DNA of 34,201 nucleotides from Bacteroidales bacterium. GTDB taxonomy: Bacteria > Bacteroidota > Bacteroidia > Bacteroidales > UBA10428. The stretch spans positions 1-34,201 of the forward strand of contig JAFGIP010000106.1 in the NCBI GenBank assembly GCA_016929525.1, given 5' to 3'. The notes under the pieces were generated by a model. It was given only the letters and a program-made list of their open reading frames with translations, made no database searches and was not told the DNA's origin. Below are positions 5,639-22,718 of this stretch, piece by piece. Both the position numbers and the translations under genes were made by a program. Each line of letters opens with the position of its first letter. Position 1 is the stretch's first letter.

Positions 5639-5722
5639 TTTTAATTCTTATCACATCTCTTTCGAAAGTAGTGATTATGTTTTAACTAAACTTCTATCTA
5701 TCACCATTTAGTTTACAATTGT

Positions 5723-5759
5723 CCACATAGAAAGAAACATTCATCCACATCACCCGCAT
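5723..5759 (+). promoter_or_regulatory. Operator-like CCACAT direct-repeat array upstream of the GH operon
   Basis: Four similar 6-mers stand in a row: CCACAT (5723-5728), AAACAT (5735-5740), CCACAT (5745-5750) and CCGCAT (5754-5759). Their ends are spaced 12, 10 and 9 bp, roughly one helical turn each. The last CCACAT ends 19 bp before the -7 element TAAGTTTG at 5770-5777, where a -33 element would otherwise lie. The core AGAAACATnCnTCCACAT is repeated upstream of susC with identical spacing to its -7 element. Tandem, helically phased sites upstream of the promoter suit an AraC-type activator. The HTCS of this locus is the inferred binder. Confidence 0.7.
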
Positions 5760-5769
5760 TAAAGTGGAT

Positions 5770-5777
5770 TAAGTTTG
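5770..5777 (+). promoter_or_regulatory. Promoter -7 element (TAAGTTTG) of the GH operon
   Basis: TAAGTTTG matches the Bacteroidota -7 consensus TAnnTTTG exactly. No TTTG -33 element is present; the operator array occupies that place, as expected for an activator-dependent promoter. The start codon at 5857 leaves a leader of about 70 nt. Confidence 0.65.
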
Positions 5778-5856: not shown

Positions 5857-8295
5857 ATGAAATTATACATACATAGACTTGACTTTAAAATTATAAGCAT
5901 TCTGTTTATTGTTATAACTGTGACAGGATGTAATAAAGAATCAAAATTACCTCCCCGGGTGACTACTAGTTTCAACAACAACTGGAAATTTATACTTTCT
6001 GACAGTGATTCATTATTTGATTCAGATATCGATGACAGTAACTGGAGAAATCTGAACCTTCCGCATGACTGGAGTATTGAAGGGGAATTAAGCAATGATC
6101 ATCCTGCAACAGTTGGTGGCGGGGCATTACCTGGTGGCATTGGATGGTACAGAAAAACTTTTATAATTCCTGAATCCGATTCGCTAAAAAAACATTTCAT
6201 TCTTTTCGATGGTATTTACTGGGGCAGTAAAGTATATCTGAACGGTCATTTACTAGGGTACAGACCTAATGGATATATATCTTTTCAATATGATCTTAGT
6301 CCTTATTTAAATTATGGCCATAAAAAGAATGTTCTGGCAGTAAAGGTAGATAATTCAAATCAACCAAATTCCCGCTGGTATAGCGGATCAGGAATATATC
6401 GTAACGTTTGGTTAATAAAAAAAGAACCCGTTCATATCGACTTATGGGGAACGTATATCACAACGCCCGAAGTATACAAAAAGTTTTCTGTTGTTACTGT
6501 TTCAACAAAAGTTAAAAATACAACCCAGGATGCTGTAACCGTTGATGTCAAGATAGAAATTTATGACCATGAAAATTCATTGGTTGCAGACGTTAGTAAC
6601 AAATTGTCAGTAAATGCCAATAGTGATAACGTTATTAAACAAAACCTGACTGTTCCTTCACCAAAGCTCTGGTCGGTAAATAACCCTTATTTATATAAGG
6701 TGAAAACACTTATTAAAAATAAAGGAGTATTGATCGACAGTGATGAAGTTAATGCCGGTATCAGAAATTTCAGATTTGATGCTGAAAAGGGATTTTTCCT
6801 GAATGATGTCCCTCTAAAAATTTTAGGAGTTTGTAATCATCACGATCTGGGATGTCTTGGCTCGGCTGTAAATGAGAGAGCCATTGAACGACAACTGGGA
6901 ATATTAAGAGAAATGGGTTGTAATGCAATAAGAACCTCTCACAATCCGCCGGCTCCGGAATTGCTTGATCTTACAGACAGGATGGGATTTATTGTTATGG
7001 ATGAAACTTTTGATATGTGGAAAAAACCCAAAACTGAATATGATTATTCACAGTACTGGGATGACTGGCATATAAAAGATCTTACTGACCATATATTAAG
7101 AGACAGGAATCACCCTTCGGTTTTTATCTGGAGTATTGGCAATGAGATCATCGAACAATGGGACACCAGTGGTACCCGAATGACTAAAGAACTTGTCGCT
7201 ATCGTAAAGTCACTTGATAAATCACGCCCTATAACAACCGCGAATAATTACGCAGAGCCTGAAAATTATATTCTGAAATCGGAAGAATTTGAACTCATTG
7301 GTTACAACTATAAACACGATCAGTTTATAAATTTCCATGAAAAATTTCCCGGAGGAAAATTTATAGCAACTGAAACTACATCTGGTCTTATGACCCGTGG
7401 TTGCTATGATATGCCATCCGATAGTATTCGCCGCTGGCCATACCGTTGGGATAAACTCTTTACGGATGGTAATCCGGATAATACAGTTTCAGCTTATGAT
7501 AATGTTAGCACTTCCTGGGGTTCGACACATGCTGAAACCTGGAAGATTATCAGGAAATTTGATTTCCTTTCCGGTATGTTTATCTGGACCGGTTTTGATT
7601 ATCTCGGTGAACCCACTCCATATGTATGGCCATCGAGAAGTTCTTACTTTGGAATCATTGATCTGGCAGGTATTCCAAAAGATGTATACTACTTATACCA
7701 AAGCGAATGGACAGATAAACCAACACTGCATGTTTTTCCGCACTGGAACTGGCAGGAAGGACAGATTATCGATGTAATTGCCTATACAAACTGCATTGAA
7801 GTTGAACTTTTCCTAAATGGTAAATCTCTCGGCAAAAAAAATAAATCCGAAGATGATCTTAAATTAATGTGGAGAACCGAATTCATACCTGGTGAACTGA
7901 AAGCCTTAGGAATTCTGCCTGATGGAAATAAACTTGAAACGATAGTTAATACTTCCGGAAAACCGGCGAAGATCAGTTTAAAAGCCGATAGAAACCAGAT
8001 TAAAGCCAACGGAAAAGATCTCTCATTTGTAATTGTTGAGGTCTGTGATTCTATAAATAATATGGTACCGTACGCTGATAATTTAATAAACTTCAGGATT
8101 GATGGCGATGCTATCATTGCTGGTGTTGACAATGGTGATCCGGTAAGCCACGAACCCTTTAAAGTAAACTTCAGGAAAGCTTTTCATGGAAAATGCCTTG
8201 TTGTGATTCAATCGAAAAAAACGAAGAACAAGGTTCGTCTCACTGCCAGTTCAAAAGGACTGGAATCTGCAGAAACTACAATAACAATTGAATAA
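5857..8295 (+). CDS. GH2 beta-galactosidase-like lipoprotein
   Basis: This GH2 enzyme of 812 residues is expected to remove terminal beta-galactosyl residues from imported oligosaccharides, in the periplasm. I chose the ATG at 5857. The frame is open back to a TTG at 5788, but from 5857 the protein starts directly with a lipoprotein signal (MKLYIHR, hydrophobic run, lipobox VTGC). Domains: sugar-binding jelly roll with LPHDWSIEGE and GIGWYRKTF (about 30-195), Ig-like domain (about 200-305), TIM barrel (about 310-590), then DUF4982-like and Ig-like C-terminal domains. The acid/base is Glu430 in WSIGNE and the nucleophile is Glu506 in FIATETTSG. HNPPAPELLDL is a typical GH2 motif. It is the first gene of the operon, which suits a side-chain beta-galactosidase for xyloglucan. 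Other GH2 specificities (beta-glucuronidase and others) cannot be fully excluded. Confidence 0.85.
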   Translation: MKLYIHRLDFKIISILFIVITVTGCNKESKLPPRVTTSFNNNWKFILSDSDSLFDSDIDDSNWRNLNLPHDWSIEGELSNDHPATVGGGALPGGIGWYRKTFIIPESDSLKKHFILFDGIYWGSKVYLNGHLLGYRPNGYISFQYDLSPYLNYGHKKNVLAVKVDNSNQPNSRWYSGSGIYRNVWLIKKEPVHIDLWGTYITTPEVYKKFSVVTVSTKVKNTTQDAVTVDVKIEIYDHENSLVADVSNKLSVNANSDNVIKQNLTVPSPKLWSVNNPYLYKVKTLIKNKGVLIDSDEVNAGIRNFRFDAEKGFFLNDVPLKILGVCNHHDLGCLGSAVNERAIERQLGILREMGCNAIRTSHNPPAPELLDLTDRMGFIVMDETFDMWKKPKTEYDYSQYWDDWHIKDLTDHILRDRNHPSVFIWSIGNEIIEQWDTSGTRMTKELVAIVKSLDKSRPITTANNYAEPENYILKSEEFELIGYNYKHDQFINFHEKFPGGKFIATETTSGLMTRGCYDMPSDSIRRWPYRWDKLFTDGNPDNTVSAYDNVSTSWGSTHAETWKIIRKFDFLSGMFIWTGFDYLGEPTPYVWPSRSSYFGIIDLAGIPKDVYYLYQSEWTDKPTLHVFPHWNWQEGQIIDVIAYTNCIEVELFLNGKSLGKKNKSEDDLKLMWRTEFIPGELKALGILPDGNKLETIVNTSGKPAKISLKADRNQIKANGKDLSFVIVEVCDSINNMVPYADNLINFRIDGDAIIAGVDNGDPVSHEPFKVNFRKAFHGKCLVVIQSKKTKNKVRLTASSKGLESAETTITIE

Positions 8296-8305
8296 CTCCC
8301 TTGTT

Positions 8306-10210
8306 ATGATAAGAAAATCATTTACTATCTCGATATTATTAATTACCCTTCCAAAAATATATTCACAGGATACAAACTGCTTTTTAGTTGATCATTCACC
8401 TATAGATATTGTAGCACCGACATATATTGATGCAGTAAAACCGTCTGAGCAGTTTACTGTAGAGGTCAGCATCGATCCATACGATACTTTACACAAGGTA
8501 TCTAAATATGTGCTGGGAAATTCAGTTGCAACCTGGGCCGGTAATATAGGGACCGATCCTGATTTTGTCAATTATACCAGTCTCATGTCACCCACTCTTA
8601 TCAGGTATCCAGGAGGCAGCTGGGCTGACATATTTTTCTGGAATGCCAGCAACGAAGGTGATGTTCCGGGTATACCCGATTCGTTGGTCAATTCAGAGGG
8701 AGTCAAAGAACTTTTCTATCCGCAGTTCGGAGCAGCATTTGGTGGTAACTGGCGAATGACCATTGATAATTACTATTCTCTAAAAAGTTCAACAGGCACT
8801 CAGGGATTAATCTCAGTAAATTATGGATATGCACGTTATGGGAGAACGGAAGATCCTGTTGCAACAGCTGCCCACCTTGCTGCAGAATGGGTACGTTATG
8901 ACAACGGAAGAACCAGGTTCTGGGAAGTTGGGAATGAGACAGCAGGAACCTGGGAAGCCGGATGGAGAATTGATACATCATATAATCATGATGACCAACC
9001 AGAAATCGTTAGCGGTGAACTTTACGGTCAACATTTCCTGGTATTTGCCGACTCGATGCGAAAAGCAGCTTCAGAAGTCGGAGCAGAAATCTATATCGGA
9101 GCACAAATACTCCATTATGATGGAACCGGTAGCTGGAATTCAGCTGATCATGAGTGGAATATCGGAGTTTTTAATGCTATCGGCAATGCAGCAGACTTCT
9201 ACGTAATTCATAACTATTTTGGCACTAATTCAAACAGTGCAACCTCATTGTTGAATGAAGGTTATAATACGATTGGCGAAATGATGGATTTTATCCAGGG
9301 AGATATCGAAGATAAAGAAGCAACACCTCGTCCTGTTGCACTTACAGAATGGAACACTTTTGCAACAGGTGATAAAAGATCTTCAAGTATAAATGGTATC
9401 CAGGCAATTTTAGTATTTAATGAACTCAATAAATATGAATATGGTATGTCATGTCGTTGGCTTTTAGCCAACTGGGAAGATGACGGTATCCTTTATGTTG
9501 GTGACGATTCCTCAATTCCCGATTTCAGTCCGCGACCTGCCTTCTTCTATATTTATTATCTGAACAAATTTGTTGGTGATCATTTGATAGCCTCTGAATC
9601 AAACCTTAGTAATATAGTTAGTTATGCATATACTTTTACCACAGGTCATGTATCGGTTATTGTTGTTAACAAAGGTTCTACTAATGAAGTTGTCAGAATC
9701 CTGCCAGGAGAATTTGGGTGCAGCGATAAGTTTTATTTATTTTCTGTAGAAGGTGAGATAATTGGTGATGAAAGTGAAAATTTCCCTCAGGGGGTAAATG
9801 TAAACGGATATGGTCCTGTAAATGATTTCTTGGGCCCTATAGAAAATCTTGAAAGCATAGAAGCAAAAGGTTATGACACCGGCATTGAGATCAGATTTAA
9901 TTCACCGGCCTTTTCAGTTCAATATGTTCTTTTAGAACCCGGTGAAAATTTTTTATCTCCTGTAGAGAATACACTAATGAATAATGAACTGGCTGTATAT
10001 CCAAATCCGTTTGAAAGCCAATTCACAGTTGAACTTTCTGATAATATCAGAAAACTTGAAATTATCGATTTGCAAGGGTGCATTGTTTTTACCAAAGAAT
10101 TATTAAATAAAAAGATATTGCAGATTTCAACTGAATTAAATAGTGGTACTTATTTCCTTAAAGTATATACATCAGATGAAATTCTGATGCAAAAGATAGT
10201 AAAGAACTGA
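8306..10210 (+). CDS. Clan GH-A glycoside hydrolase with T9SS type A sorting domain
   Basis: The ATG at 8306 (634 residues) is preferred over the in-frame TTG at 8288, which overlaps the previous gene and precedes a normal signal peptide (MIRKSFTISILLITL, cleavage near IYSQ). The catalytic part is a TIM barrel of the GH-A clan. LIRYPGGSWAD forms an early strand, FWEVGNE carries a probable acid/base Glu211, and ALTEWNT carries a probable nucleophile Glu348. The overall layout recalls GH51, GH79 or GH30-like arabinofuranosidase or endoglycanase domains, but I cannot fix the family. Residues about 562-634 (VYPNPFESQF to ILMQKIVKN) form a T9SS type A C-terminal sorting domain, so the enzyme is exported across the outer membrane. 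It is the only gene in the operon with this export route, making it the best candidate for the extracellular, first-acting enzyme. Confidence 0.75.
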   Translation: MIRKSFTISILLITLPKIYSQDTNCFLVDHSPIDIVAPTYIDAVKPSEQFTVEVSIDPYDTLHKVSKYVLGNSVATWAGNIGTDPDFVNYTSLMSPTLIRYPGGSWADIFFWNASNEGDVPGIPDSLVNSEGVKELFYPQFGAAFGGNWRMTIDNYYSLKSSTGTQGLISVNYGYARYGRTEDPVATAAHLAAEWVRYDNGRTRFWEVGNETAGTWEAGWRIDTSYNHDDQPEIVSGELYGQHFLVFADSMRKAASEVGAEIYIGAQILHYDGTGSWNSADHEWNIGVFNAIGNAADFYVIHNYFGTNSNSATSLLNEGYNTIGEMMDFIQGDIEDKEATPRPVALTEWNTFATGDKRSSSINGIQAILVFNELNKYEYGMSCRWLLANWEDDGILYVGDDSSIPDFSPRPAFFYIYYLNKFVGDHLIASESNLSNIVSYAYTFTTGHVSVIVVNKGSTNEVVRILPGEFGCSDKFYLFSVEGEIIGDESENFPQGVNVNGYGPVNDFLGPIENLESIEAKGYDTGIEIRFNSPAFSVQYVLLEPGENFLSPVENTLMNNELAVYPNPFESQFTVELSDNIRKLEIIDLQGCIVFTKELLNKKILQISTELNSGTYFLKVYTSDEILMQKIVKN

Positions 10211-10232
10211 TCAACCCTAATTAAATAGCCCG

Positions 10233-12674
10233 GTGAAAATTTTTAGACATCAGATTACCTTAATCGCTTTTATACTGACCCTGCAATGTTATGGTGAATT
10301 AATATGCTCAGCATCAAACCCGGTAAAAGGATTCACCAGCTGGCTTCCTGCACGAACCTGGGATAACGCAATGCTTTGTGGTAACGGAACAATGGGAGCA
10401 ATGATATATGGGAATCCTCATGATGAAACAATTATTGTAAATCATGCATTGCTCTATCTGCCTAATACAGAACCTTTAAAACCTATTGATCAGATTTCTA
10501 TCCTTGATGAAATTAGGCAGGCGGGGTTAGATGGGGATTTTAAAAAAGCATCCCGTTTGCCATATGAATTGGCACTTAAAGAGGGCTATGGCGGTACACG
10601 TTGGCATGATCCTTATATCCCTGCTTTTGAAATTAAAATTCATATGGATGCAGGGAACATTGAAAAATATAAACGGAGTGTAAATTTTGAAACCGGTGAG
10701 GCCATCGTCAGCTGGTCACAGGATGGAAAAACTTTCAAAAGACAGGTGTTTACATCAAGGGCAGATACTGTTTTAGTCATTAAAATTTCAGGTACTGAAT
10801 CTTTTAACTGTCAGGTTGAATTAAAACAGCTTCCCGTCGAATGGGATCAGTGGGATTACATTAACAGTACCGTTAAAAAAACTGAAATAACAGCATACGA
10901 CAATACCCTAAGATATAGTTGTGAATTCAATAAAAAGTTTACAGAAAGCATAAGTGGCTTTGAGGGAGCAGGCAGGATATATCTCGTTGGCGGAAGTTCC
11001 AGGGTTAAGAATAATTCGCTGTATATCAACAATGCCAACGAGATTATCCTGCTTTTATCATTAAATCCTTACTCCCAAAATGATAGTTCTGCTTTTAATA
11101 CTGCTCTGAACAGGATTAATAAACTTAATCCTGATTATAAAGACATACTTTTAAAACATACTGAAATTCATGGTGAATTATTTAATCGTGTGAATTTCAA
11201 TTTATACGGTTCAGAGAGAGACAGGAACCTTGATGCTGAAGTAATGATGCTTCAGGCTAAAAATCGCTATAGCTGCGCTTTTATTGAAAAACAGTTCTAT
11301 GCTTCGCGGTACAATATTTTAAGTGCTACTGGTATTAAACCACCAAATCTGCAGGGAATATGGGGTGGTACATGGACACCTCCATGGTCATCGGTTTTTA
11401 CAAATGACGGCAATGTACCGGTAGCCATTTCTTCTTTCATGAGTTCAAATCTGGAAGAACTTATAATGGCTTATTTTCGATATCACGAAAGTCTTCTACC
11501 CCATTACAGGGAAAATGCTAAGAATCTTTTCGGATGCAGAGGTATCAATATTCCGGCCCATACAGGAACACACGGCTATTTAAATCATTTTGGCGACGTT
11601 TGGTGTTTATCTCTCTGGACGGCAGGAGCCGGCTGGGTTTCAAGTTTCTTTTTTGATTATTACTTGTATACAGGTGATATTACTTTCCTAAAAGAAAGAG
11701 CATATCCCTTTATGAAGGAGACTGCTCATTTTTATGAAGATTTTTTAATTGAAGGGCCAAATGGAAGATTTATTTTCAATCCTTCTTATTCTCCTGAAAA
11801 TAATCCGGCAAATAGTGAATCGCAGGCTGTAATTAACGCCACCATGGATGTTATGGTTGCCAGACAATTATTAAAAAACTGCATCAAAGCAGGAAACCTT
11901 ATCGGAGAAAATCCGGATAAAATAAAATTATGGAAAGAAATGCTGAATAAAATGCCGGCATATGAATTAAACGAAAAAGGAGAGTTGCGTGAATGGATAT
12001 GGCCCGAACTGGAAGAAAATCATGCACATCGTCATGTTTCACATTTATATGGTCTTTATGATATAATTGATCCTGACCTGGCAGCTGATCCGGAGCTGAT
12101 TGATGGTGCCAGAAAGGTATTGATGGAAAAACTTAAGGTTAGACAAGCCGATAATGGAGGAATAATGGTTTTTGGACTGGTGCAGTTAGCCTGGATTGCT
12201 GCCAGCCTTGGAAACGGGAAGACCGTGGAAGAAATTCTGCAATGGCTGTCTGCACAATACTGGTCAAACTCATTGGCTACATATCACGATCCGAACGGAC
12301 TTTTTAATATGGATTTGAGCGGAGGATTTCAGCAGGTTATTATCAAAGCTTTATTGTATTCCGAAACCGGAATGATTAGAATCCTGCCGGCGTTGCCACC
12401 GACCTGGAAACAGGGAGAAATTTCAGGCATCAAATTGCGCGGACAAATAGAGGTCAAACGGCTGTCATGGGAAGAAAATAGTATAAATGTTGACATGGTA
12501 TCTGATATTGATCAAACAGCTAGTATCAGTTTCCCTGATGAAGTCAAAAATATTGAACTGACCGAAGGACTGACAAAAAATGATTTTCAAAAGAAATCAA
12601 AAACTGAATATATCATTAAACTACAAAAATATAACCCCGTTTCCCTGCGTGTGCAATTAGATGTAATAAATTAA
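10233..12674 (+). CDS. GH95-family glycoside hydrolase, variant active site
   Basis: This is an 813-residue GH95 enzyme, a family of inverting alpha-L-fucosidases and alpha-L-galactosidases. The start is GTG at 10233, chosen because a signal peptide (MKIFRHQITLIAFILTL) follows at once. The N-terminal beta-sandwich has ARTWDNAMLCGNGTMGAMIYG. The (alpha/alpha)6 barrel has PPNLQGIWGG, TPPWSS, SYSPENN with Glu522 matching the family general acid, HRHVSHLYGLYD, and FNMDLSGGF with Asp694 at the place of the family base. Usual members carry NxN after the TPPW motif; an ungapped alignment gives Asp392-Gly-Asn394 here, so the first Asn is replaced by Asp. It lies 22 bp after the T9SS enzyme and 11 bp before the GH97 gene. 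Removing alpha-fucose from xyloglucan side chains would fit, but the altered residue leaves specificity open. Confidence 0.8.
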   Translation: MKIFRHQITLIAFILTLQCYGELICSASNPVKGFTSWLPARTWDNAMLCGNGTMGAMIYGNPHDETIIVNHALLYLPNTEPLKPIDQISILDEIRQAGLDGDFKKASRLPYELALKEGYGGTRWHDPYIPAFEIKIHMDAGNIEKYKRSVNFETGEAIVSWSQDGKTFKRQVFTSRADTVLVIKISGTESFNCQVELKQLPVEWDQWDYINSTVKKTEITAYDNTLRYSCEFNKKFTESISGFEGAGRIYLVGGSSRVKNNSLYINNANEIILLLSLNPYSQNDSSAFNTALNRINKLNPDYKDILLKHTEIHGELFNRVNFNLYGSERDRNLDAEVMMLQAKNRYSCAFIEKQFYASRYNILSATGIKPPNLQGIWGGTWTPPWSSVFTNDGNVPVAISSFMSSNLEELIMAYFRYHESLLPHYRENAKNLFGCRGINIPAHTGTHGYLNHFGDVWCLSLWTAGAGWVSSFFFDYYLYTGDITFLKERAYPFMKETAHFYEDFLIEGPNGRFIFNPSYSPENNPANSESQAVINATMDVMVARQLLKNCIKAGNLIGENPDKIKLWKEMLNKMPAYELNEKGELREWIWPELEENHAHRHVSHLYGLYDIIDPDLAADPELIDGARKVLMEKLKVRQADNGGIMVFGLVQLAWIAASLGNGKTVEEILQWLSAQYWSNSLATYHDPNGLFNMDLSGGFQQVIIKALLYSETGMIRILPALPPTWKQGEISGIKLRGQIEVKRLSWEENSINVDMVSDIDQTASISFPDEVKNIELTEGLTKNDFQKKSKTEYIIKLQKYNPVSLRVQLDVIN

Positions 12675-12685
12675 AAAACTTAGGT

Positions 12686-14665
12686 ATGAAGAGGAATATT
12701 TTGTTAACGCTGTTACTGACTATTGTTCTTATCTCTTGCAACAGACAATCACAGCTGTCAGTAGAATCGCCCGACGGGAATATTAAACTGGTGTTTTCAT
12801 CTTCAGAAAATTCAGTTCAGTATAAAATTTTCTATATAGATACCGAGATTATAAAAAACTCTGCTTTAGGTTTGGTCATTAAAGAAAATGACACATTAAC
12901 AAATAATCTTGTAATTACCAGTAGCCATAAAAATACTTACGATGAAACCTGGGAACAACCATGGGGTGAAAAAAGATTTATCAGAAATAACTACAATGAA
13001 ATATTTGTCTCGCTTAAAGAATCCAGCGGTAAACAACGACAAATTAATATAATCTTTCGGGTATTTAATGATGGAGTTGGTTACAGATATGAGATTCCTG
13101 AACAACCAAACCTTGACAGCATTATCATAACCGATGAGTTGACCGAATTTAAGTTTGCTGATAACCATGAAGGCTGGTGGATTCCTGCTTACAGAGACAA
13201 CAGATATGAATATCTGTATAAAAAGTCAGCACTTAGTGAAATAGATACCGTTCATACTCCTTTTACCATTGAAACAAATGATGGATTTTATCTGAGTATT
13301 CACGAAGCTAATCTTACTAATTATGCGAGTATGACACTTGCTTCCGTTGGTGATAATACTTTAAAATGTGACCTGGTCCCATGGGCCGATAGTACGAAAG
13401 TCAAAACTTCGGCTCCAATGGTCACTCCCTGGAGAACTATTCAAATAACAGATAAACCCGGTGACCTGATTACTTCATATCTGATATTAAACCTGAATGA
13501 ACCAAATAGGCTTGATGATATCTCTTGGATAAACCCTGTAAAATACATGGGAATTTGGTGGGGAATGCACATTGGTAGATATACCTTCTGGGAAAGCGAT
13601 AATCAGGGAGCAACCACAGCTAATGCAAAATACTATATCGATTTTGCATCAGAACAAGGTATTAAGTACTTACTGATTGAAGGGTGGAATACCGGGTGGA
13701 CCCCTTCATGGTATGAAAATCTACTGCATGTTTTTTCCTTTACCCAGTGCGCAAATAATTTCAGTTTTAATGAAGTAGTCGATTATGCTAAATCAAAAAA
13801 GGTAAACATAATCGGTTATCATGAAACCGGATCGAACCTCGAAAATTATCTGGCTCAGATAGATAGTGCTATGCAAATGTATGAGGATGCAGATATACAT
13901 AACATAAAAATCGGACAGGTAGGATCACGTCTTCAACTTAAAGAATGGCACCATGGACAATTTGGAGTTGAATATTACAGATATGTACTTGAAAAAGCTG
14001 CTGAGCACAAATTGACGGTAAATTTTCACGAACCGATTAAACCAACCGGGTTAAGGCGTACAATGCCAAATCTAATGACCGGAGAAGGAGCTCGCGGTCA
14101 GGAATATAATGCGTGGAGTGAAGGAAATCCGCCTTTACATACATGCATATTGCCTTTTACAAGATTGCTTGCCGGGCCAATGGATTTTACCCCTGGTGTT
14201 TTTAAAATTACTACAACGCGAGTACATACAACTCTCGCTAAACAACTGGCGTTATATGTAATTATATTTTCACCGGTACAAATGCTTGCTGATCTGCCTG
14301 AAAACTATGACAGTCATCCTGCCTTCCGTTTTTTAATTGATGTACCTGTCGACTGGGAAGATACAAAAGTACTGGAAGGTGAAATTGGCGAATACATTAC
14401 TATTGTCCGTAAAGACAGACACAGCAATGATTGGTATCTTGGAAGCATTACCAACAAAACTGCACGTGAAACCAAAGTTGATCTTTCTTTCCTGGAAGAT
14501 GGAGAAGTATATATCGCAACAATATATGCAGATGGTGAAGATGCCGAATATGATAAAAATCCGGAAAGTTACCGGATCGATACAATGAAAGTAACCAGCA
14601 CTTCATCAGTTGATTTGAAACTCGCCCCTGGCGGAGGATGCGCTATCCAGTTTATTAAACTTTAA
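12686..14665 (+). CDS. GH97 alpha-glycosidase, SusB-type inverting subgroup
   Basis: This GH97 lipoprotein of 659 residues has a signal peptide ending in the lipobox LISC. An N-terminal beta-sandwich (about 20-280) precedes the TIM barrel (about 285-560) and a C-terminal beta domain. The four glutamates of the SusB active site are present with matching spacing: Glu380 (YHET), Glu449 (NFHEP), Glu467 (TGEG) and Glu473 (QEY). Spacings of 69, 87 and 93 residues from the first equal those between SusB Glu439, Glu508, Glu526 and Glu532 as I recall them. The Asp nucleophile of the retaining alpha-galactosidase subgroup is not seen; the region reads KIGQVGSRLQ. I therefore expect an inverting, calcium-dependent alpha-glucosidase-like enzyme. 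Its exact substrate in this hemicellulose-like locus is not obvious. Confidence 0.85.
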   Translation: MKRNILLTLLLTIVLISCNRQSQLSVESPDGNIKLVFSSSENSVQYKIFYIDTEIIKNSALGLVIKENDTLTNNLVITSSHKNTYDETWEQPWGEKRFIRNNYNEIFVSLKESSGKQRQINIIFRVFNDGVGYRYEIPEQPNLDSIIITDELTEFKFADNHEGWWIPAYRDNRYEYLYKKSALSEIDTVHTPFTIETNDGFYLSIHEANLTNYASMTLASVGDNTLKCDLVPWADSTKVKTSAPMVTPWRTIQITDKPGDLITSYLILNLNEPNRLDDISWINPVKYMGIWWGMHIGRYTFWESDNQGATTANAKYYIDFASEQGIKYLLIEGWNTGWTPSWYENLLHVFSFTQCANNFSFNEVVDYAKSKKVNIIGYHETGSNLENYLAQIDSAMQMYEDADIHNIKIGQVGSRLQLKEWHHGQFGVEYYRYVLEKAAEHKLTVNFHEPIKPTGLRRTMPNLMTGEGARGQEYNAWSEGNPPLHTCILPFTRLLAGPMDFTPGVFKITTTRVHTTLAKQLALYVIIFSPVQMLADLPENYDSHPAFRFLIDVPVDWEDTKVLEGEIGEYITIVRKDRHSNDWYLGSITNKTARETKVDLSFLEDGEVYIATIYADGEDAEYDKNPESYRIDTMKVTSTSSVDLKLAPGGGCAIQFIKL

Positions 14666-14797
14666 ATTGATTATATATAGTTAAATACTTTCTTTAAGAA
14701 CTTCGCTCTTTCTTTGTGATCTCTGTAGTTTATCTTTATGCGAGATGATAAAAAAGCATTTCCGTTGAATTAAAAGAAATGATTAAATTTTTAAACA

Positions 14798-17209
14798 ATG
14801 AAAAATAAATTATTAAAAACATTATTATTAATAGTAATGGCCATTGCAGTTATCAGGGACTTGGTCTTTGCACAACTTCAGGGCTTCACTCTGCAGAACG
14901 AACCGATAGATATAAGCCCGGACTTCAGCAGTTTTAAAAATACGTATTATCTGGCTGATCAGTTGGCAAATTTTGATCCGTTAACGGGAAAAGGTGAAAT
15001 TCAATATGATCGTTATGAATATTCCACAAGAATGGCATTTAACAATATGCTTGGAAAATTAAATCCTGTTGTCCCGAATGAATTTCCCGGAATTGAATAT
15101 GCCGCTTCACCCCACCTCCCGTTTTCGGTTGAATTTATTTCTCCCCGAACAGTGCGGATTAAAGCAAAATCCGGCACAGAAGTTAATCCTGATGAAAAAT
15201 CGTTAATGCTGGTAAATGGAGTTGCGCCTGTCAGTGATGCATGGAAATATTCAAAAAGTGATGATAACCATGTGTATACGAGTGAATTCGGAAAAGTAGT
15301 AATCTCTTCAAAGCCTTTTCGGATATCAGTTTTTGATAATAAAGGAAAGCTGCTGACAAGTACAAATCATCATGAAGATAATGCACTTACAACATATACT
15401 CCTGTATTACCATTTTCATTTGTTCGTCGTGCATCGGATTATTCAAGAAGTTTTTCCGCAACCTTCAACCTTTCTCCCGATGAGAAGATTTTCGGCCTCG
15501 GTGAATCGTACACAGTATTTAATAAACGCGGACAAAAAGTAGTACTGTGGGTCGATGATCCGAACGGGGTGCAGAATGAAACTATGTACAAACCCGTCCC
15601 ATTCTTTATGAGCAGTCGCGGATATGGAGTATTCATGCATACCTCATCACCTGTTACCTGCGATTTCGGTAAATACTTTAATGGCGTTTCCTCTCTGATG
15701 ATTGGTGATGAAGCGCTGGACCTTTTCATCTTCATTGGAGAACCCAAAGACATACTTGATGAGTATACCGATCTTACAGGCAAGTCTCCACTTCCCCCAT
15801 TGTGGTCATTTGGGTTCTGGATGAGCCGGATAACATATTTCTCGGAAGATGATGGCAGGATTGTAGTTGATAAACTCAGGAAATACGAAGTCCCTGCCGA
15901 TGTTCTGCATTTCGATACAGGTTGGTTTGAAACTGATTGGCGCTGTGATTACCAGTTTTCTCCATCCCGGTTTAAAGATCCTGAAAAAATGATTACCGAT
16001 TTCAAAGAAAAAGGAATACATACATGTCTGTGGCAACTTCCCTACTTCGTTCCAAAGAATACATTGTTCCCTGAAATACTTGAAAAAGGGCTATATGTGA
16101 AGAACGATAAAGGTAATCTGCCCTATGAAGATGCAGTACTCGATTTTTCAAATCCTGAGACTGTTGATTGGTATCAGGCTAAGATAAAAGGACTTCTCGA
16201 CCTGGGTGTTGGAGCTATTAAAGTCGATTTTGGTGAGGCAGCTCCTGCCAAAGGAATTTATGCATCAGGAAAATCCGGTTTTTATGAACATAACCTGTAT
16301 CCATTGCGATACAATAAGGCTGTTTCGGATATTACTTACGAAACTCACGGTGAACGCATTATCTGGGCCAGAAGTACCTGGGCCGGAAGTCAAAGATATC
16401 CTGTACACTGGGGTGGCGATCCTGCTAATACATATTCAGCTATGTCAACAACGCTGCGTGGGGGTTTGTCAATTGGTCTGTCAGGATTTTCGTTCTGGAG
16501 TCATGATATCGGAGGATTCGTTTTAAAAACTCCTGAAAATATTTATAGGCACTGGACTCCTTTTGGAATGCTTACATCTCACGTAAGAAGTCATGGAACT
16601 CCTCCAACGGAACCATGGGAGTACAGCGAAGATTTTCTGAACGCATTTCGTGAAGCTGATAACATGCGCTATCGACTTATGCCGTATATCTATGCTCAGG
16701 CTAAGGATTGCTCCGAAAGAGGACTTCCTATGCTGCGTGCCCTTTTTATAGAATTTCCTGATGATCCCGGATCATGGCTGATAGATGATCAGTATATGTT
16801 TGGTACAAATATTCTTGTGGCACCATTATTCTCCGATGATAATAATAGAAATATTTATTTGCCACCGGGAAAGTGGATCGACTATCAAACTGGAAAAATG
16901 TATGAAGGAGGCTGGCACATGATTGAAGCAGGTGAAATACCAATTATAATGCTGGTGCGCAATGGCTCGGTTATACCACATATTAAACTGGCTCAGTCGA
17001 CAAAATTTATGGACTGGTCAGAAATTGAACTGGTCGTTTACAACGACCATAATAAAAAATCGGATGGAATTATCTTTCTGCCAGATGAAGATACTCTGAA
17101 GAAAGTAAGAATTATAACAGATAAAGAAGGTCTTAAACTTGTGCAGGATCCTTATAATAATAAAGTTACCTTGATACTTAACAGCTGTACTAACCGTTTA
17201 AATAATTAA
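14798..17209 (+). CDS. GH31 alpha-xylosidase (YicI-like)
   Basis: This 803-residue GH31 enzyme is expected to remove alpha-1,6-xylose from the non-reducing end of xyloglucan oligosaccharides. A Sec signal peptide ends near LVFAQ. An N-terminal beta-sandwich with FGLGESYTVFNKRGQ precedes the barrel with PPLWSFGFWMSR and LHFDTGWF. Asp477 in IKVDFGEAAP is the nucleophile and Asp541 in VHWGGDPANTY is the acid/base. The KxDFGE form and the conserved RGGLSIGLSGFSFWSHDIGGF region follow E. coli YicI, a known alpha-xylosidase, more closely than GH31 alpha-glucosidases. It is separated from the GH97 gene by 132 bp, the largest gap in the operon, and its stop is 2 bp from the GH3 start. Signal peptide implies a periplasmic location. 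Confidence 0.88.
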   Translation: MKNKLLKTLLLIVMAIAVIRDLVFAQLQGFTLQNEPIDISPDFSSFKNTYYLADQLANFDPLTGKGEIQYDRYEYSTRMAFNNMLGKLNPVVPNEFPGIEYAASPHLPFSVEFISPRTVRIKAKSGTEVNPDEKSLMLVNGVAPVSDAWKYSKSDDNHVYTSEFGKVVISSKPFRISVFDNKGKLLTSTNHHEDNALTTYTPVLPFSFVRRASDYSRSFSATFNLSPDEKIFGLGESYTVFNKRGQKVVLWVDDPNGVQNETMYKPVPFFMSSRGYGVFMHTSSPVTCDFGKYFNGVSSLMIGDEALDLFIFIGEPKDILDEYTDLTGKSPLPPLWSFGFWMSRITYFSEDDGRIVVDKLRKYEVPADVLHFDTGWFETDWRCDYQFSPSRFKDPEKMITDFKEKGIHTCLWQLPYFVPKNTLFPEILEKGLYVKNDKGNLPYEDAVLDFSNPETVDWYQAKIKGLLDLGVGAIKVDFGEAAPAKGIYASGKSGFYEHNLYPLRYNKAVSDITYETHGERIIWARSTWAGSQRYPVHWGGDPANTYSAMSTTLRGGLSIGLSGFSFWSHDIGGFVLKTPENIYRHWTPFGMLTSHVRSHGTPPTEPWEYSEDFLNAFREADNMRYRLMPYIYAQAKDCSERGLPMLRALFIEFPDDPGSWLIDDQYMFGTNILVAPLFSDDNNRNIYLPPGKWIDYQTGKMYEGGWHMIEAGEIPIIMLVRNGSVIPHIKLAQSTKFMDWSEIELVVYNDHNKKSDGIIFLPDEDTLKKVRIITDKEGLKLVQDPYNNKVTLILNSCTNRLNN

Positions 17210-17211
17210 TT

Positions 17212-19377
17212 ATGAAATCTGTTTTTATTACTTTCCTGGTAATATTCCAGATAAGTACCTGTACCTTTGAACTAAATGCCCAATATGAATATCCTTTTCA
17301 GGATCCGAATCTTGATGCAGAGTCACGTATCGACAACATCATTGAGTTGATGACGCTCGATGAAAAAATAAATTGTCTCAGTACCAATCCATCCGTAACA
17401 AGAATTAAAATTGAAGGAACCGGACATGTTGAGGGTCTTCACGGACTCGCAAAAGGAGGACCGAGTAACTGGGGCCAGATTAATCCTGCTCCTGCAACAA
17501 TATTTCCGCAGGCAATAGGTTTGGCAGAGACCTGGGATATAGATGCAATGAAAAGAGTTGCCGAAATTGAAGCTTATGAGGTTCGATATATGTACCAAAA
17601 TGAAAACTATACCCGAGGGGGATTGGTGGTAAGAGCTCCGAATGCTGATATTGGCCGTGATCCCCGCTGGGGAAGAACCGAAGAATGTTTTGGTGAAGAT
17701 GCCTGGTTCAATGCACAGATGGTTGTTGCCTTTATTAAAGGACTTCAGGGTGATCACCCAAAGTACTGGAAAACTGCCTCACTAATGAAACATTTTCTGG
17801 CAAACAGTAATGAAAATGATCGGGTCAACTCATCATCCGATTTTAATGAACGGTTATTTCACGAATACTATTCCTATCCGTTTTATAAGGGAATTACAGA
17901 AGGTGGTTCAAGGGCTTTTATGGCTGCTTATAATGCATACAATGGTATCCCGATGACAGTGCATCCGGTACTTAAAGATGTAACTGTTGATGAGTGGGGC
18001 AACAATGGAATAATTTGTACCGACGGAGGCGCTTTTAAATTATTGGTAAGTGCTCACAGGTATTATCCCGATCTCTACATAGCTGCTGAAGGATGCATTA
18101 AATCCGGTATCAACCAGTTCCTCGATGATTATCGTCTTGGAGTTTACGGAGCCCTGGCGTTTGGGTATATTACCGAACAGGATATCGATTCAGTGATCCG
18201 AGGAAATTTCAGGGTGATGATTAATCTGGGACAACTCGACCCTCCTGAAATGGTCCCGTATAAAACCATCGGTCAGCCGGGAGAAATTGAGCCGTGGCTT
18301 ACGGAAAAACATAAGCAGGCAGCATTGGATATAACACGTAAATCAGTCGTATTATTAAAAAACGAAGACAGCACACTTCCTCTGAAAAAGGAGAACCTGA
18401 AAACAGTAGCAGTAATAGGACCCTGGGCTGATACAGTGCTTCTAGATTGGTATAGTGGTACACCTCCATATTATGTATCACTTCTTGAAGGAATTAAAAA
18501 TAAATTAAATGGGTATGGAGAAGTATTATTTGTGCAAAATAATGATGACAACCGTGCTGTTGAAGCCGCACAGCAAGCAGATTTAGCAGTAGTTGTAGTC
18601 GGCAACCATACTACCTGCAATGCAGGCTGGGCACAATGCCCCACACCAAGCGATGGCAAAGAGGCTGTAGACAGGCAGGCTATCAATCTTGAACAGGAAG
18701 AACTTATAAAAGTCGTTAATGAGGCCAATCGAAATACTGTTGTAGTATTAATAAGTAATTTTCCTTACACCATTAACTGGACTAATGAAAATATCCCGGC
18801 AATTGTACATATTACCCATGCCAGCCAGGAACAGGGGAATGCTTTGGCAGATGTACTTTTTGGCGACTACAATCCGGCAGGCCGACTGGTACAAACCTGG
18901 CCAAAATCCATTGATCAGCTTCCGGAAATGATGGATTACGACATTACCAAAGGACGTACCTATATGTATTTTGATGGTGAAACATTATATGAATTCGGAT
19001 ATGGTCTGAGCTATACAACTTTTAGATACTCTAATCTCAAATTAAATAAGAAGAGCATTTCAGCAGACGGAGAAATTGAGGTTAGTGTTGATGTTGTAAA
19101 TACAGGTAAAATGGCGGGGGATGAAGTTGTACAATTATATATTCAGCATTTGAATTCAGCAGTAGATCGACCAAACATTGAGCTTAAAGGATTCAAAAGG
19201 ATAACCATTAATCCCGGAGAAACTGAAAATGTAAACATTACTTTAAAAGCTTCCGATCTGGCATACTGGAATGTTGATATGCATGATTATGTTGTGGAAC
19301 AGGATCAGATTAAAATAATGGTTGGAAGCTCATCAAAAAAAATTAAGCTTACAGAAAAAATAAATGTAGTACAATAA
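17212..19377 (+). CDS. GH3 beta-glucosidase/beta-xylosidase
   Basis: This GH3 enzyme has 721 residues. A signal peptide ends near FELNAQ. The order is the usual one: TIM barrel domain with APNADIGRDPRWGRTEECFGED, SLMKHFLANSNEN and GIICTDGG (Asp271 is the expected nucleophile); an alpha/beta sandwich with LPLKKENLKTVAVIGPWAD and VVVVGNH; and a C-terminal fibronectin III-like domain (from about residue 610, GEIEVSVDVVNTGKMAGDEVVQLYI). GH3 enzymes of this layout cleave beta-glucosides or beta-xylosides. After alpha-xylosidase and beta-galactosidase action, a beta-glucosidase that trims the xyloglucan backbone would fit. The gene begins 2 bp after the GH31 stop, so the pair is translationally close. 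Confidence 0.85.
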   Translation: MKSVFITFLVIFQISTCTFELNAQYEYPFQDPNLDAESRIDNIIELMTLDEKINCLSTNPSVTRIKIEGTGHVEGLHGLAKGGPSNWGQINPAPATIFPQAIGLAETWDIDAMKRVAEIEAYEVRYMYQNENYTRGGLVVRAPNADIGRDPRWGRTEECFGEDAWFNAQMVVAFIKGLQGDHPKYWKTASLMKHFLANSNENDRVNSSSDFNERLFHEYYSYPFYKGITEGGSRAFMAAYNAYNGIPMTVHPVLKDVTVDEWGNNGIICTDGGAFKLLVSAHRYYPDLYIAAEGCIKSGINQFLDDYRLGVYGALAFGYITEQDIDSVIRGNFRVMINLGQLDPPEMVPYKTIGQPGEIEPWLTEKHKQAALDITRKSVVLLKNEDSTLPLKKENLKTVAVIGPWADTVLLDWYSGTPPYYVSLLEGIKNKLNGYGEVLFVQNNDDNRAVEAAQQADLAVVVVGNHTTCNAGWAQCPTPSDGKEAVDRQAINLEQEELIKVVNEANRNTVVVLISNFPYTINWTNENIPAIVHITHASQEQGNALADVLFGDYNPAGRLVQTWPKSIDQLPEMMDYDITKGRTYMYFDGETLYEFGYGLSYTTFRYSNLKLNKKSISADGEIEVSVDVVNTGKMAGDEVVQLYIQHLNSAVDRPNIELKGFKRITINPGETENVNITLKASDLAYWNVDMHDYVVEQDQIKIMVGSSSKKIKLTEKINVVQ

Positions 19378-19382
19378 AAGAT

Positions 19383-19395
19383 ACCCTGACAGGGT
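19383..19395. other. Short inverted repeat between GH3 and GH27 genes
   Basis: ACCCT, GAC, AGGGT form a 5-bp perfect stem with a 3-nt loop in the 35-bp gap between the GH3 stop and the GH27 start. There is no U tract, so it is not a normal terminator. It could slightly stabilise or process the mRNA, or be chance. Confidence 0.3.
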
Positions 19396-19412
19396 GTGCT
19401 ATTTTAAAATAC

Positions 19413-20618
19413 ATGAAAACACCTTTCTTCCTGATTTTAATTTTTTTAAATGCTGAATTTACATCAGCACAAAAATTCGATAGCCTTGCTCTTACTCCGC
19501 CTATGGGATGGAACAGCTGGAACCACTTCGGCTGTAATGTGAACGAACAACTAATCCGTGAAACAGCAGAAGCCATGGTAAGCAGCGGAATGAAAGATGC
19601 CGGTTATGTTTATGTTAATATTGATGATTGCTGGCATGGTGATCGTGACAGCCTTGGCTTTATACATCCAAATTCTGAACGATTCCCTTCCGGAATGAAA
19701 GCCCTTGCAGATTATATCCATTCTCTTGGACTTAAGATCGGGATATATTCTGATGCCGGATGGAAAACCTGTGCAGGTTACCCTGGAAGCAGAGGGCATG
19801 AATACCAGGATGCATTGCAATATGCTGCATGGGGTATAGATTATCTTAAATACGACTGGTGTAATACCGATGGACTTGAAGCTGTCGGAGCATACCTTAC
19901 CATGCGAAATGCATTATATGAAGCAGGTCGCCCCATTGTATTCAGTCTATGCGAATGGGGTAATGACCAGCCCTGGGAATGGGGAGATACCATTGGGCAT
20001 TTATGGAGAATCAGCGGGGATATAGACGTATGCTTTGATTGCAAAGTAGATCACGGAACCTGGTCCTCCTGGGGAGTTCTGCAAATTATCGATATGCATG
20101 ACGGAATCAGACAGTATGTAGGCCCTGATCACTGGAACGATTATGATATGATGGAAGTTGGAAACGGCATGAGTACAAATGAAGACCGGGCACACTTTTC
20201 AATGTGGTGCATGCTTGCCTCACCTCTAATAGCCGGAAATGATCTGAGAAAAATGACCCCTGAAACACTTGAAATTCTTACTAAAAAAGAAGTTATTGCT
20301 GTCAATCAGGATCCTCTTGGGATATCAACCTTTAAGTATGATGCTATTGGAAAAACAGATGTCTGGATCAAACCTATGAGCAATAATGAATGGGCAGTTT
20401 GTTTTTTAAACAGAAGTACAGAACCTGTAGAATTTATTTTTCCCTGGAAAGAAAACCCGTTTAATGATAAATTATCGAATCGCTCGGCAGATTTTATAAC
20501 AGAAGAATTTTCAATAAAAAACCTTTGGACAAACAAAACTGAAGGAACAACCAAAGAGCCAATGGAAATAAAAATACCCGGGCATGATGTGCTTTTATTA
20601 GAATTATCACGGAAATAG
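19413..20618 (+). CDS. GH27 alpha-galactosidase
   Basis: This is a 401-residue GH27 enzyme, a retaining alpha-galactosidase. The signal peptide ends at TSAQ. The family motifs are clear: LTPPMGWNSWNHF at the start of the barrel, YVNIDDCW, LKIGIYSDAGWKTC, and DYLKYDWCN with the nucleophile Asp148. The acid/base Asp203 lies in RISGDID, spaced after the Arg as in the human enzyme. CMLASPLIAGNDL and AVNQDPLG close the barrel, and a short beta-sandwich follows. Family GH27 also holds some beta-L-arabinopyranosidases, which remain possible. Alpha-galactosidase is the activity expected for galactomannan side chains, so together with the beta-mannosidase at 3035-5638 it extends the likely substrate range beyond xyloglucan. 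It ends in TAG. Confidence 0.88.
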   Translation: MKTPFFLILIFLNAEFTSAQKFDSLALTPPMGWNSWNHFGCNVNEQLIRETAEAMVSSGMKDAGYVYVNIDDCWHGDRDSLGFIHPNSERFPSGMKALADYIHSLGLKIGIYSDAGWKTCAGYPGSRGHEYQDALQYAAWGIDYLKYDWCNTDGLEAVGAYLTMRNALYEAGRPIVFSLCEWGNDQPWEWGDTIGHLWRISGDIDVCFDCKVDHGTWSSWGVLQIIDMHDGIRQYVGPDHWNDYDMMEVGNGMSTNEDRAHFSMWCMLASPLIAGNDLRKMTPETLEILTKKEVIAVNQDPLGISTFKYDAIGKTDVWIKPMSNNEWAVCFLNRSTEPVEFIFPWKENPFNDKLSNRSADFITEEFSIKNLWTNKTEGTTKEPMEIKIPGHDVLLLELSRK

Positions 20619-20652
20619 ATAATTTTAAACTTACAATCAAAATACTAAAGAC

Positions 20653-22632
20653 TTGAAAACTTATATTCTCTTATTTGCAGTTGTAATTAATCTGTACTCC
20701 TGCACCAGGAACAAAGACATCTTTTTAGAAACATCCCCTATGTTTGGGAATAATATGGTATTACAAGCCAATAAACAAATTCCTGTCTGGGGTAAAGCAA
20801 CACCTGATGAAAGAATAAAAGTTAAATTTCACAATCAAAGAGTAAAAGCAAAATCTGATGAACATGGTAACTGGAAACTATTACTGAATCCGGAGAATTA
20901 CGGTGGCCCCTATCATCTGACTATTACATGTAAAGACACGAGAATTGAATTTAATAATGTACTGATTGGTGAAGTATGGCTATGCTCCGGACAATCAAAC
21001 ATGGAAATGCCCTTACTGAGTAATTGGGCTAAACTTAATAATGCCGAAAAGGAAGTTCGTGATGCTGATTATCCGAATATCAGACTTTACACTATTGAAA
21101 AAAATACCTCATTCTTTCCCATTGATTCGATAAATACACAAGGATGGAAAGAATGCATTCCTGAAACAGTAAAAGATTTTTCAGCAACAGCATATTTTTT
21201 TGGAAGAAAAATTCATGAAGAATTAAATGTACCTGTCGGATTGATACATTCCTCCTGGGGAGGAACTGTTGCAGAAGCCTGGACCAGTAATGAATCACTT
21301 GAGAAACTTGATGATTTCAAAGACCAGGTTCAAAAAATCAAAAGTCTTTCAATATCAATAGACAGTATTTACATAAAATATCAAAAAGACCTTGAGCAAA
21401 GAAATCGTGAAATAATTGAAGCAGATATAGGATTTGAGGACGGAGAAGCAATATTCGCAAAGGATAATATTGATACCCAAGGCTGGATGAAAACCGACCT
21501 TCCAATGATGTGGGAAAAAACTGAAATGGGAAATTTCGACGGATCAGCGTGGTTCCGGAAAGAAATTAATCTTTCTTCAAATATGGCTTCCGGTAAATTA
21601 ACTCTTTGTTATGGTGCCCCTGACGATCATGATGAAGCTTGGTTTAATGGAGTTAAAATCGGTCAAAACACCGAATGGGATGTACAACGTAAATATGCAA
21701 TACCTGATGGCCTGGCAAAATCAGGAAAGAATGTTATTCTTATCCGGATTTTAGATTACCAGGGAGATGGTGGATTTATGGGAGAAGAAAACGATTATGT
21801 CTTAAAATCGAACAGAGGTGATTCAATGAATCTTCATGCCGGATGGATGGCTATTAAAGGATTTGATCTTTCAGATATCAAAACAAAACCTTTTTCTCCT
21901 TTTGATCCTAATCAACCTGCTGTTCTGTTCAATGCTATGATTAACCCGGTAATCCCATATACAATTCAGGGAGTTATCTGGTACCAGGGCGAAAGCAATG
22001 CAAACAGGGCATATCAGTATCGTGAATTATTTAAAACTTTAATCACCGACTGGAGAAACCTATGGGGTGAAGAATTGCATTTCATGTTTGTGCAGCTTGC
22101 CAATTACATGCAGCAAAATTCGATTCCTGTTGAGGATTCATGGGCCGAACTCAGAGAAGCACAAACTATGGCACTTGAACTTCCAAACACCGGTATGGCA
22201 GTTACCATAGATATTGGCGATGCAAATGACATACATCCCGGTAACAAACAAGATGTTGGAAAACGACTTGCTTTAAATGCCCTGGCAAAGGTTTATAATA
22301 AAGATATTGCATATTCCGGGCCTGTGTTCAACAGCATGGAAATCATTGGTGATACTATAAAAATTAGTTTTGATCATGTTTATGAAGGTCTTCATACCAG
22401 CGATGAAAAACCTGTAACCGGTTTTTCCATTGCCGGGGATGACAGAATATTTTATTGGGCAATCGCTGAAATTAATGGCAATTCAGTATATGTAAGCTCG
22501 CCGGGAGTACGAGACCCGGTTACCATTCGTTATGCGTGGAGTGCAAATCCCGCATGCAATCTGGTTAATTCTGCTGATTTACCGGCATCACCCTTCAGAA
22601 CTGATGAATGGCCCGGCATAACAAAAAAATAG
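20653..22632 (+). CDS. Sialate O-acetylesterase / CE20-like carbohydrate acetylesterase
   Basis: This SGNH-type esterase has 659 residues. The start is TTG at 20653; no nearby ATG would keep the lipoprotein signal (MKTYILLF to lipobox LYSC), so the TTG is well supported. Catalytic parts: CSGQSNMEMPL with Ser115, IWYQGESNAN, and DANDIHPGN with Asp526 and His528. Between the Ser and the His blocks lies an inserted jelly-roll domain at about residues 265-385 (GNFDGSAWFRKEINL, DDHDEAWFNGVKIG, NVILIRILDYQGDGG). This architecture is the one I recall for the xyloglucan acetylesterase family CE20 described in Xanthomonas. It would remove acetyl groups from side-chain galactose before the exo-glycosidases act. 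Sialic acid deacetylation is unlikely, as no sialidase or sialate gene is nearby. It is the last enzyme of the operon and ends in TAG. Confidence 0.8.
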   Translation: MKTYILLFAVVINLYSCTRNKDIFLETSPMFGNNMVLQANKQIPVWGKATPDERIKVKFHNQRVKAKSDEHGNWKLLLNPENYGGPYHLTITCKDTRIEFNNVLIGEVWLCSGQSNMEMPLLSNWAKLNNAEKEVRDADYPNIRLYTIEKNTSFFPIDSINTQGWKECIPETVKDFSATAYFFGRKIHEELNVPVGLIHSSWGGTVAEAWTSNESLEKLDDFKDQVQKIKSLSISIDSIYIKYQKDLEQRNREIIEADIGFEDGEAIFAKDNIDTQGWMKTDLPMMWEKTEMGNFDGSAWFRKEINLSSNMASGKLTLCYGAPDDHDEAWFNGVKIGQNTEWDVQRKYAIPDGLAKSGKNVILIRILDYQGDGGFMGEENDYVLKSNRGDSMNLHAGWMAIKGFDLSDIKTKPFSPFDPNQPAVLFNAMINPVIPYTIQGVIWYQGESNANRAYQYRELFKTLITDWRNLWGEELHFMFVQLANYMQQNSIPVEDSWAELREAQTMALELPNTGMAVTIDIGDANDIHPGNKQDVGKRLALNALAKVYNKDIAYSGPVFNSMEIIGDTIKISFDHVYEGLHTSDEKPVTGFSIAGDDRIFYWAIAEINGNSVYVSSPGVRDPVTIRYAWSANPACNLVNSADLPASPFRTDEWPGITKK

Positions 22633-22633
22633 G

Positions 22634-22668
22634 GTTTTCTTAAAAAGTCTAAAAAAATATAAGAAAAC
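22634..22668. other. Hairpin after the GH operon, possible weak terminator
   Basis: GTTTTCTTA (22634-22642) pairs with TAAGAAAAC (22660-22668), a 9-bp AT-rich stem with a 17-nt loop. It sits 1 bp after the esterase stop. There is no T tract after it on the + strand, so any termination would be weak, and read-through into the membrane protein gene 50 bp downstream is possible. Confidence 0.35.
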
Positions 22669-22718
22669 TTCTGATCAACCCGTTATTATATATTAATTAA
22701 CCTTCCTAAATAATAATT

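Follow-up and report, generated by a model that had tools for sequence, protein, structure and literature searches.

AraC-family proteins that activate in the class II manner, for example AraC at araI, use direct-repeat half-sites that adjoin the upstream promoter element or lie over it.

For the HTCSs of B. thetaiotaomicron, 16 motifs have been predicted, all of them direct repeats with an average distance of 21 bp, and the repeat has been interpreted as a dimer site that places both monomers on the same side of the DNA (Ravcheev et al., 2013; PMC3878776). ChIP-seq regions are available for BT0366 and BT1754 (PMC3404733), promoter fragments have been gel-shifted by BT4124, BT4663 and BT0366 (PMC11253607, PMC5061871) and an S/CHIP motif in the receiver domain has been linked to phosphorylation-gated binding (PMC11253607). 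Promoters of the primary sigma factor carry TAnnTTTG at −7 and TTTG near −33 (PMC7366714). These and the other papers cited are represented here by excerpts, to which our statements on them apply. An earlier note on the present DNA, made from the sequence alone, held that HTCS sites are rarely defined. This is half right: the predicted motifs, ChIP-seq regions and gel shifts listed above exist, and most HTCS operators in the literature covered by these excerpts are predictions.

Here, we describe two sites that are very probably (at roughly 0.85, as judged from sequence) the operators of the HTCS encoded between them at 23979–28145.

The locus

The surroundings of the two sites are a polysaccharide utilisation locus (PUL), in which a run of glycosidase (GH) genes on the + strand is followed by HTCS, SusD and SusC genes on the − strand. 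Positions refer to the window, which is the whole stretch of 34,201 nucleotides that was analysed.

5857–23978, + strand: GH operon, likely target, presumably a single operon; its ATG lies 79 nt past the −7 box
23979–28145, − strand: HTCS, proposed binder of both operators
28275–29879, − strand: susD, likely target gene
29895–33125, − strand: susC, likely target gene; one TAG interrupts the frame

The genes of the GH operon are, in order, GH2, a T9SS-tailed protein, GH95, GH97, GH31, GH3, a melibiase of the GH27 type, a SASA esterase and an unassigned last gene. The GH31 protein is most like chains named alpha-glucosidase 5f7c and YicI. The HTCS consists of a Reg_prop propeller, Y_Y_Y, HisKA and HATPase domains, a receiver with a SHIP motif (residues 1211–1214) and an AraC-type HTH_18 domain. 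From the set of functions that marks a xyloglucan locus (endo-xyloglucanase, alpha-xylosidase, HTCS and SusCD), HTCS and SusCD are present, and no endo-glucanase is recognised in the window PUL.

Two further features of the locus stand out. The TAG in susC is located at 30603–30605 (− strand) and the SusC profile matches at full length across it (29895–32990); it may reflect a sequencing error, decay or readthrough. The T9SS-tailed protein of the GH run (8288–10210, + strand) is 640 amino acids long with a Pfam match for the tail only, and is possibly an unrecognised enzyme.

Register of the two candidate operators

The 6-mers pointed out in the earlier note, together with the half-sites and −7 boxes to which we assign them, are located as follows.

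5723–5728, 5735–5740 and 5745–5750, + strand: CCACAT, AAACAT and CCACAT before the GH operon
33284–33279, 33273–33268 and 33263–33258, − strand: CCACAT, AAACAT and CCACAT before susC
5713–5728, + strand: putative distal half-site of the GH-operon operator, TTACAATTGTCCACAT, −57 to −42 from the −7 box
5735–5750, + strand: putative proximal half-site of the GH-operon operator, AAACATTCATCCACAT, −35 to −20
5770–5777, + strand: predicted −7 box of the GH-operon promoter, TAAGTTTG, a consensus match to TAnnTTTG (PMC7366714)
33280–33295, − strand: putative distal half-site of the susC operator, TAACATCTAACCCACA, −57 to −42
33258–33273, − strand: putative proximal half-site of the susC operator, AAACATCCTTCCACAT, −35 to −20
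33231–33238, − strand: predicted −7 box of the susC promoter, TACCTTTA, an imperfect consensus match

The note had claimed that both promoters carry the same arrangement of 6-mers, an equal gap to the −7 box and a common 18-mer core. All of this is found in the sequence: the 6-mers occupy the positions and strands given above, the last of them, and with it the proximal half-site, ends 19 nt before the predicted −7 box in both promoters, and the core is identical at 16 of 18 positions.

Both promoters were then aligned on the −7 box, with its T taken as zero. In this register each has WWACAW at −57 and −35, and ACA-N5-CC occurs at −55/−47 and again at −33/−25 in both, which makes these letters an exact 22-bp direct repeat. 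The apparent unevenness of the gaps between 6-mers (5 versus 6 bp) disappears, since the susC site carries one additional C (CCCACAT), which moves the apparent CCACAT by one. The fourth, degenerate copy mentioned in the note does exist (TTACAA at 5713–5718 and TAACAT at 33295–33290), but it is a part of the distal half-site. In place of an array of 6-mers every 10–12 bp, half-sites of about 16 bp in a 22-bp direct repeat describe the unit better.

When the half-sites of one promoter are compared with each other at the 22-bp spacing, 11 of 16 positions are identical in the GH-operon site and only eight of 16 in the susC site. Between the two promoters, 23 of 38 positions of the site agree (letter-shuffle P about 1.5e-4), against 17 of 60 in the flanks on each side and four of 19 in the spacer, which rules out a simply duplicated promoter. 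TTTG is absent from the 19-nt spacer of either promoter of the window.

Occurrence of the CCACAT pattern

The genome of origin (4.06 Mb in 122 contigs, 97.7% complete) was scanned with CCACAT-N5/6-AAACAT-N4-CCACAT. Exactly two matches are obtained, namely the two promoters of the window, and the reversed pattern gives none. No match appears in 100 dinucleotide shuffles of the window, nor, with gaps of N4–6, in 22 other genomes of the family. The strict pattern is also without a match in 392 other genomes of the order, where the fixed gaps used also missed the GH-operon site of the window itself. CCACAT itself is a local variant, seen elsewhere only in genome G042 and at a site on contig C44 of the genome of origin, while AACA and, more loosely, CCC are retained in aligned half-sites.

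The spacing rule beside HTCS homologues

Two relatives served together with the window to define a more general form. In G042, which belongs to another family and has an HTCS of 49% identity, TTTACAATTGTCC...TACATTACACCACAT-N19-TTACTTTG precedes susC, and TTACAATTGTCC from the distal half-site of the GH-operon operator recurs in this promoter. In G225 (HTCS 38% identical), GAACAAATTAGCC...TAACATCTTACCC lies between the HTCS and GH31 genes at an equal distance from TATTTTTG. The form ACA-N5-CC and its spacing were set after the sites of the window, G042 and G225 had been manually realigned, and the looser form WWACAW was picked after inspection of the gaps behind the HTCS genes of relatives. 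A first repeat scan of ortholog intergenic regions was discarded, its candidates being mixed with low-complexity and palindromic tandem arrays; a scan anchored on the −7 box gave two matches at threshold.

The geometry was evaluated by counting WWACAW pairs at spacings of 10–39 with a −7-like box 20–59 nt behind the second start, which gives 1,200 cells. In the window, a second locus of the same genome (L258) and 46 ortholog loci, the cell for a spacing of 22 and a distance of 35 (22/35) holds eight sites, against a mean of 0.12 and three in the next cell. Four of the eight were known beforehand (the two window sites, L258 and G042), the others being those of G012, G014 and the near-identical G239 and G319. 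This first count is partly circular, because the WWACAW form was chosen after the intergenic sequences had been viewed. The reversed sequences of the same loci give zero at 22/35.

The test proper was made on a further set of loci. This test set comprises 40 loci from 21 HTCS-homologue clusters (HTCS identity 35–42%), centred on the Mediterranea genome G410, and represents 21 of 34 matched genomes. It excludes G442, which duplicates G185 in match positions and scores, a further 12 genomes of lower score and one second match each in G578 and G536. Again 22/35 is the commonest of the 1,200 cells, with five unique sites (six before overlapping stretches were counted once) against a mean of 0.07, and one of the five, the G410 site in locus L033, was known beforehand. 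The cells 22/36, 33/27, 22/57 and 22/56 hold three each. Reversed, the test set has zero at both 22/35 and 22/36 and a top cell of three. Zero is likewise obtained at 22/35 for 49 control loci, for 29 other HTCS-type loci (L034–L062) and for eight sensor loci of the genome of origin together with 18 short loci (L015–L032). The top cell of the controls, 22/46, reaches five, of which three come from a single coding homologue that related Mesonia loci share; counts of about three may therefore arise by chance or kinship.

The three sites of the 22/57 cell are three-copy arrays in G601, G587 and G615. In these loci (L315, L317 and L319) three tandem 22-bp copies, the third degenerate, lie upstream of a −7-like box, and GH31 follows the arrays of G601 and G615. 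In an intergenic region of G239 (L236:6151–6840), a unit like TTACCTTTCGGGTGACA occurs in no fewer than four 22-bp copies arranged head-to-tail, which may be another two-turn array. In G225, palindromic units like TTGTTGATAATTATCAACA are repeated with a 22-bp period at L242:13005–13613.

Strict sites, defined by a spacing of 21–22 and a distance of 34–36, number 19 in 17 of 48 clusters, and zero in the same sequences reversed. With the window and the rule-defining G042 excluded, 15 of 46 clusters have one (16 sites), so that the conservation at orthologous PULs that would be expected is partly borne out, while strict sites are missing from 31 of the 48 clusters; some clusters are located on short contigs (7.8 kb in G028 and 12.4 kb in G170). 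The recurrence beside HTCS homologues spans other genera and families.

Three less strict measures were also taken. In the clade loci, the DNA preceding 442 non-coding TAnnTTTG sites has 11 self-repeats at 22 bp versus zero to five at every other spacing between 10 and 40; the corresponding counts are zero at 22 bp and four at 21 bp in control loci (227 sites), and four at 21, two at 22 and five at 30 bp in other HTCS loci (140 sites). A leave-one-out PWM scan places 26 of 48 clusters above the second-best reversed score and only nine of 48 above the best, with near relatives kept in training. For this training G170, G560, G319 (a near copy of G239) and G615 (like G601) were left out, G225 was added and the G397 string, whose spacing is 21 bp, was padded by one base to match the 22-bp frame. 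The loose WWACAW rule applied to 11 whole genomes, partly picked for sites found earlier and thus not an independent test, gives 20 matches versus seven reversed; seven of the 20 lie inside small HTCS clusters and 13 outside. One match (G000:C112) was rejected as it falls inside an ORF.

Genes and sequence of the strict sites

In G012, G014, G001, G397 and G225, the site occupies the gap that immediately follows the HTCS gene. Among the 17 strict sites outside the window, that of G170 lies inside a + strand ORF, those of G642 and G560 overlap an ORF on the opposite strand and that of G042 overlaps the SusC frame solely via an upstream ATG. Pfam assigns ten of the downstream genes to GH31 (five: G012, G014, G001, G601 and G615), GH5-BACON (G642), SusC-like proteins (three: G438, G550 and G578) and an AraC-type regulator (G560). 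Further genes behind sites are GH3 in G239, GH94 in G397, GH5-BACON in G410 and SusC in G042; the G319 gene is assigned by likeness to G239 alone, and those of G170 and of one of the two G438 sites are without assignment. In all, 12 of 19 strict sites, the susC site of the window included, precede GH31, GH5 or SusC genes.

The 32 aligned half-sites of 16 sites have the consensus WAACAWWT-N3-CCCC-T, with C in 14–17 of 32 at positions 12–15. ACA is invariant in this alignment because it was selected for.

The DNA-binding domain most similar to that of the window HTCS among those found (74%) belongs to G004, of the same genus. A different 21-bp repeat with ACCCTGTTTT and without a fitting −7 box is present there before susC (L115:16826–17213, − strand), which may represent operator turnover despite a very similar DNA-binding domain.

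A third candidate site on contig C44

The pattern ACA-N5-CC-N12-ACA-N5-CC-N23-TWNNTTTR was run on 393 genomes of the order and gives 11 matches in nine of them, versus two reversed. Three are in the genome of the window. The third, at C44:18060–18122 (L258:10059–10123), retains CCACAT and a TTAAGTTTG box and is a weaker candidate. It is outside ORFs of at least 100 amino acids, and 60 nt further on begins the gene for a 311-amino-acid protein with a signal-like N-terminal stretch and a T9SS sorting tail, for which fold and substrate searches gave no clue beyond the tail. The eight matches in 392 other genomes put the chance of a match at about 0.02 per genome, which makes the C44 site a fair but unproven third target and its gene, on sequence grounds, a possible unlinked member of the regulon.

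Seven of the matches in other genomes were set aside. Those of G049, G364, G317 and G386 lie inside ORFs (by ORF position, the genes being unannotated), that of G070 is a simple 22-bp tandem, and those of G026 and G212 have no ORF of at least 100 amino acids close behind in the right direction.

Alternative explanations

That the two sites are targets of the adjacent HTCS, as the note had predicted, is well supported by their uniqueness in the genome, their orientation at two PUL promoters and the recurrence of the geometry beside homologues. The locus also shows what is expected of a direct-repeat HTCS operator, with two conserved sites, a spacing of 22 bp compared with the published average of 21 bp and a position upstream of PUL genes near an HTCS. 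Against this reading count the 31 clusters free of strict sites, the off-rule repeat of G004, the zero at 22/35 in the 29 other HTCS-type loci, the moderate separation in the PWM scan, the 13 loose matches outside HTCS clusters, and the low agreement of the susC halves together with the imperfect −7 box of that promoter. Another regulator shared between PULs could in principle bind the repeat, a CRP-like global one such as BT4338 (Cur/MalR) being an obvious example as AACAT is half of its consensus wwwTATGTTnTAnAACATAwww (quoted in the excerpt of PMC11501099). We regard this as quite unlikely: the palindrome TATGTT-N4-AACATA finds a best match of 9/13 in each promoter, as it does in shuffles (mean 9.6), the copies in the window are direct and not inverted, and the loose rule places seven of its 20 matches in small HTCS clusters.

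The constant distance to the −7 box and the predicted position of the proximal half-site over −33 would also suit elements that are part of the core promoter (−33 or UP-like) rather than an operator. Two copies at an exact 22-bp spacing across 38 bp fit a −33 element poorly, and the control loci lack both the 22/35 pair (zero of 49) and the 22-bp self-repeat (zero, though four at 21 bp), which makes this slightly less probable still. Least probable is a chance resemblance or a copied promoter retained from a recent duplication. The motifs are short, the DNA is AT-rich, the loose WWACAW form also matches reversed genomes and one control cell rose to five; against this, the strict CCACAT pattern is confined to two places in the genome, both in the window, the 22/35 geometry came back in the test set, and mismatched flanks on each side speak against duplication.

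Proposed mechanism and promoter code

With the HTCS taken as the binder of both operators, we infer binding, phosphorylation control, activation and polymerase contact. A periplasmic oligosaccharide would lead the HTCS to phosphorylate its own receiver domain, and phosphorylation would lift the inhibition of the AraC-type domain by the receiver and so free it, a mechanism taken from PMC11253607. Each 16-bp half-site would be occupied by one AraC domain, so that two domains would lie head-to-tail on the same face of the helix, two turns (22 bp) apart. The inner half-site would sit where a −33 element would otherwise be, and the bound dimer would contact RNA polymerase in the class II style; the predicted location of the proximal half-site over the −33 position would make class II activation likely. 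The susCD genes and the glycosidase operon would be switched on together.

More generally, we put at even odds that the HTCSs of this clade follow a strict promoter code, kept between families as flanks and inner motif bases diverge. Under this code, a pair of AACA...CCC half-sites would be spaced by exactly 22 bp, and the inner half-site would begin 35 (36) nt upstream of TAnnTTTG and replace the −33 element. If so, sequence alone would suffice to find operators and also members of the regulon that are unlinked, for instance the secreted protein of C44. An Aequorivita MAG has, immediately after its HTCS match, AAACAT and GAACAT at a spacing of 21 bp, with TAATTTTG following downstream (L039, about 12050–12116, + strand). 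With AACAT copies at a similar distance, the code may reach beyond Bacteroidales.

Comparison with known systems

The base-level register and the fixed distance to the −7 box provide constructs ready for probing activation by a membrane-bound hybrid kinase. The spacing rule could also allow regulons to be drawn in uncultured Bacteroidales and is a design guide for sugar-responsive promoters.

Xyloglucan utilisation loci are known that combine GH5-BACON with GH31 genes. In L033 of G410 the HTCS homologue adjoins GH31 and the 22/35 site precedes GH5-BACON, whereas the window PUL is without a recognised endo-glucanase. The layout of half-sites in the window resembles that of AraC at araI, and differs in having a TAnnTTTG −7 box and a transmembrane hybrid kinase as the proposed activator.

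The element is of a known kind; the apparent novelty lies in the motif of this clade and in the constant distance that separates it from the −7 box. Among the titles and abstract openings covered, none states such a fixed distance for an HTCS site, although the supplementary alignments of PMC3878776 might, and neither an HTCS half-site nor a rule for the spacing to the −7 box appears in the excerpts of PMC12596196, PMC11501099, PMC6874557, PMC10766802 and PMC12125979. The motifs of PMC3878776 are similar to the window sites in being direct repeats upstream of PUL genes near an HTCS; they differ in belonging to B. thetaiotaomicron HTCSs and, in the excerpt, have no stated distance to a −7 box. 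BT4124, BT4663, BT0366 and BT1754 are, like the HTCS of the window, AraC-type HTCSs at PUL promoters, and the S/CHIP motif is shared. They have been studied by gel shift or ChIP on fragments, while the window sites are defined by sequence evidence only, but at base resolution.
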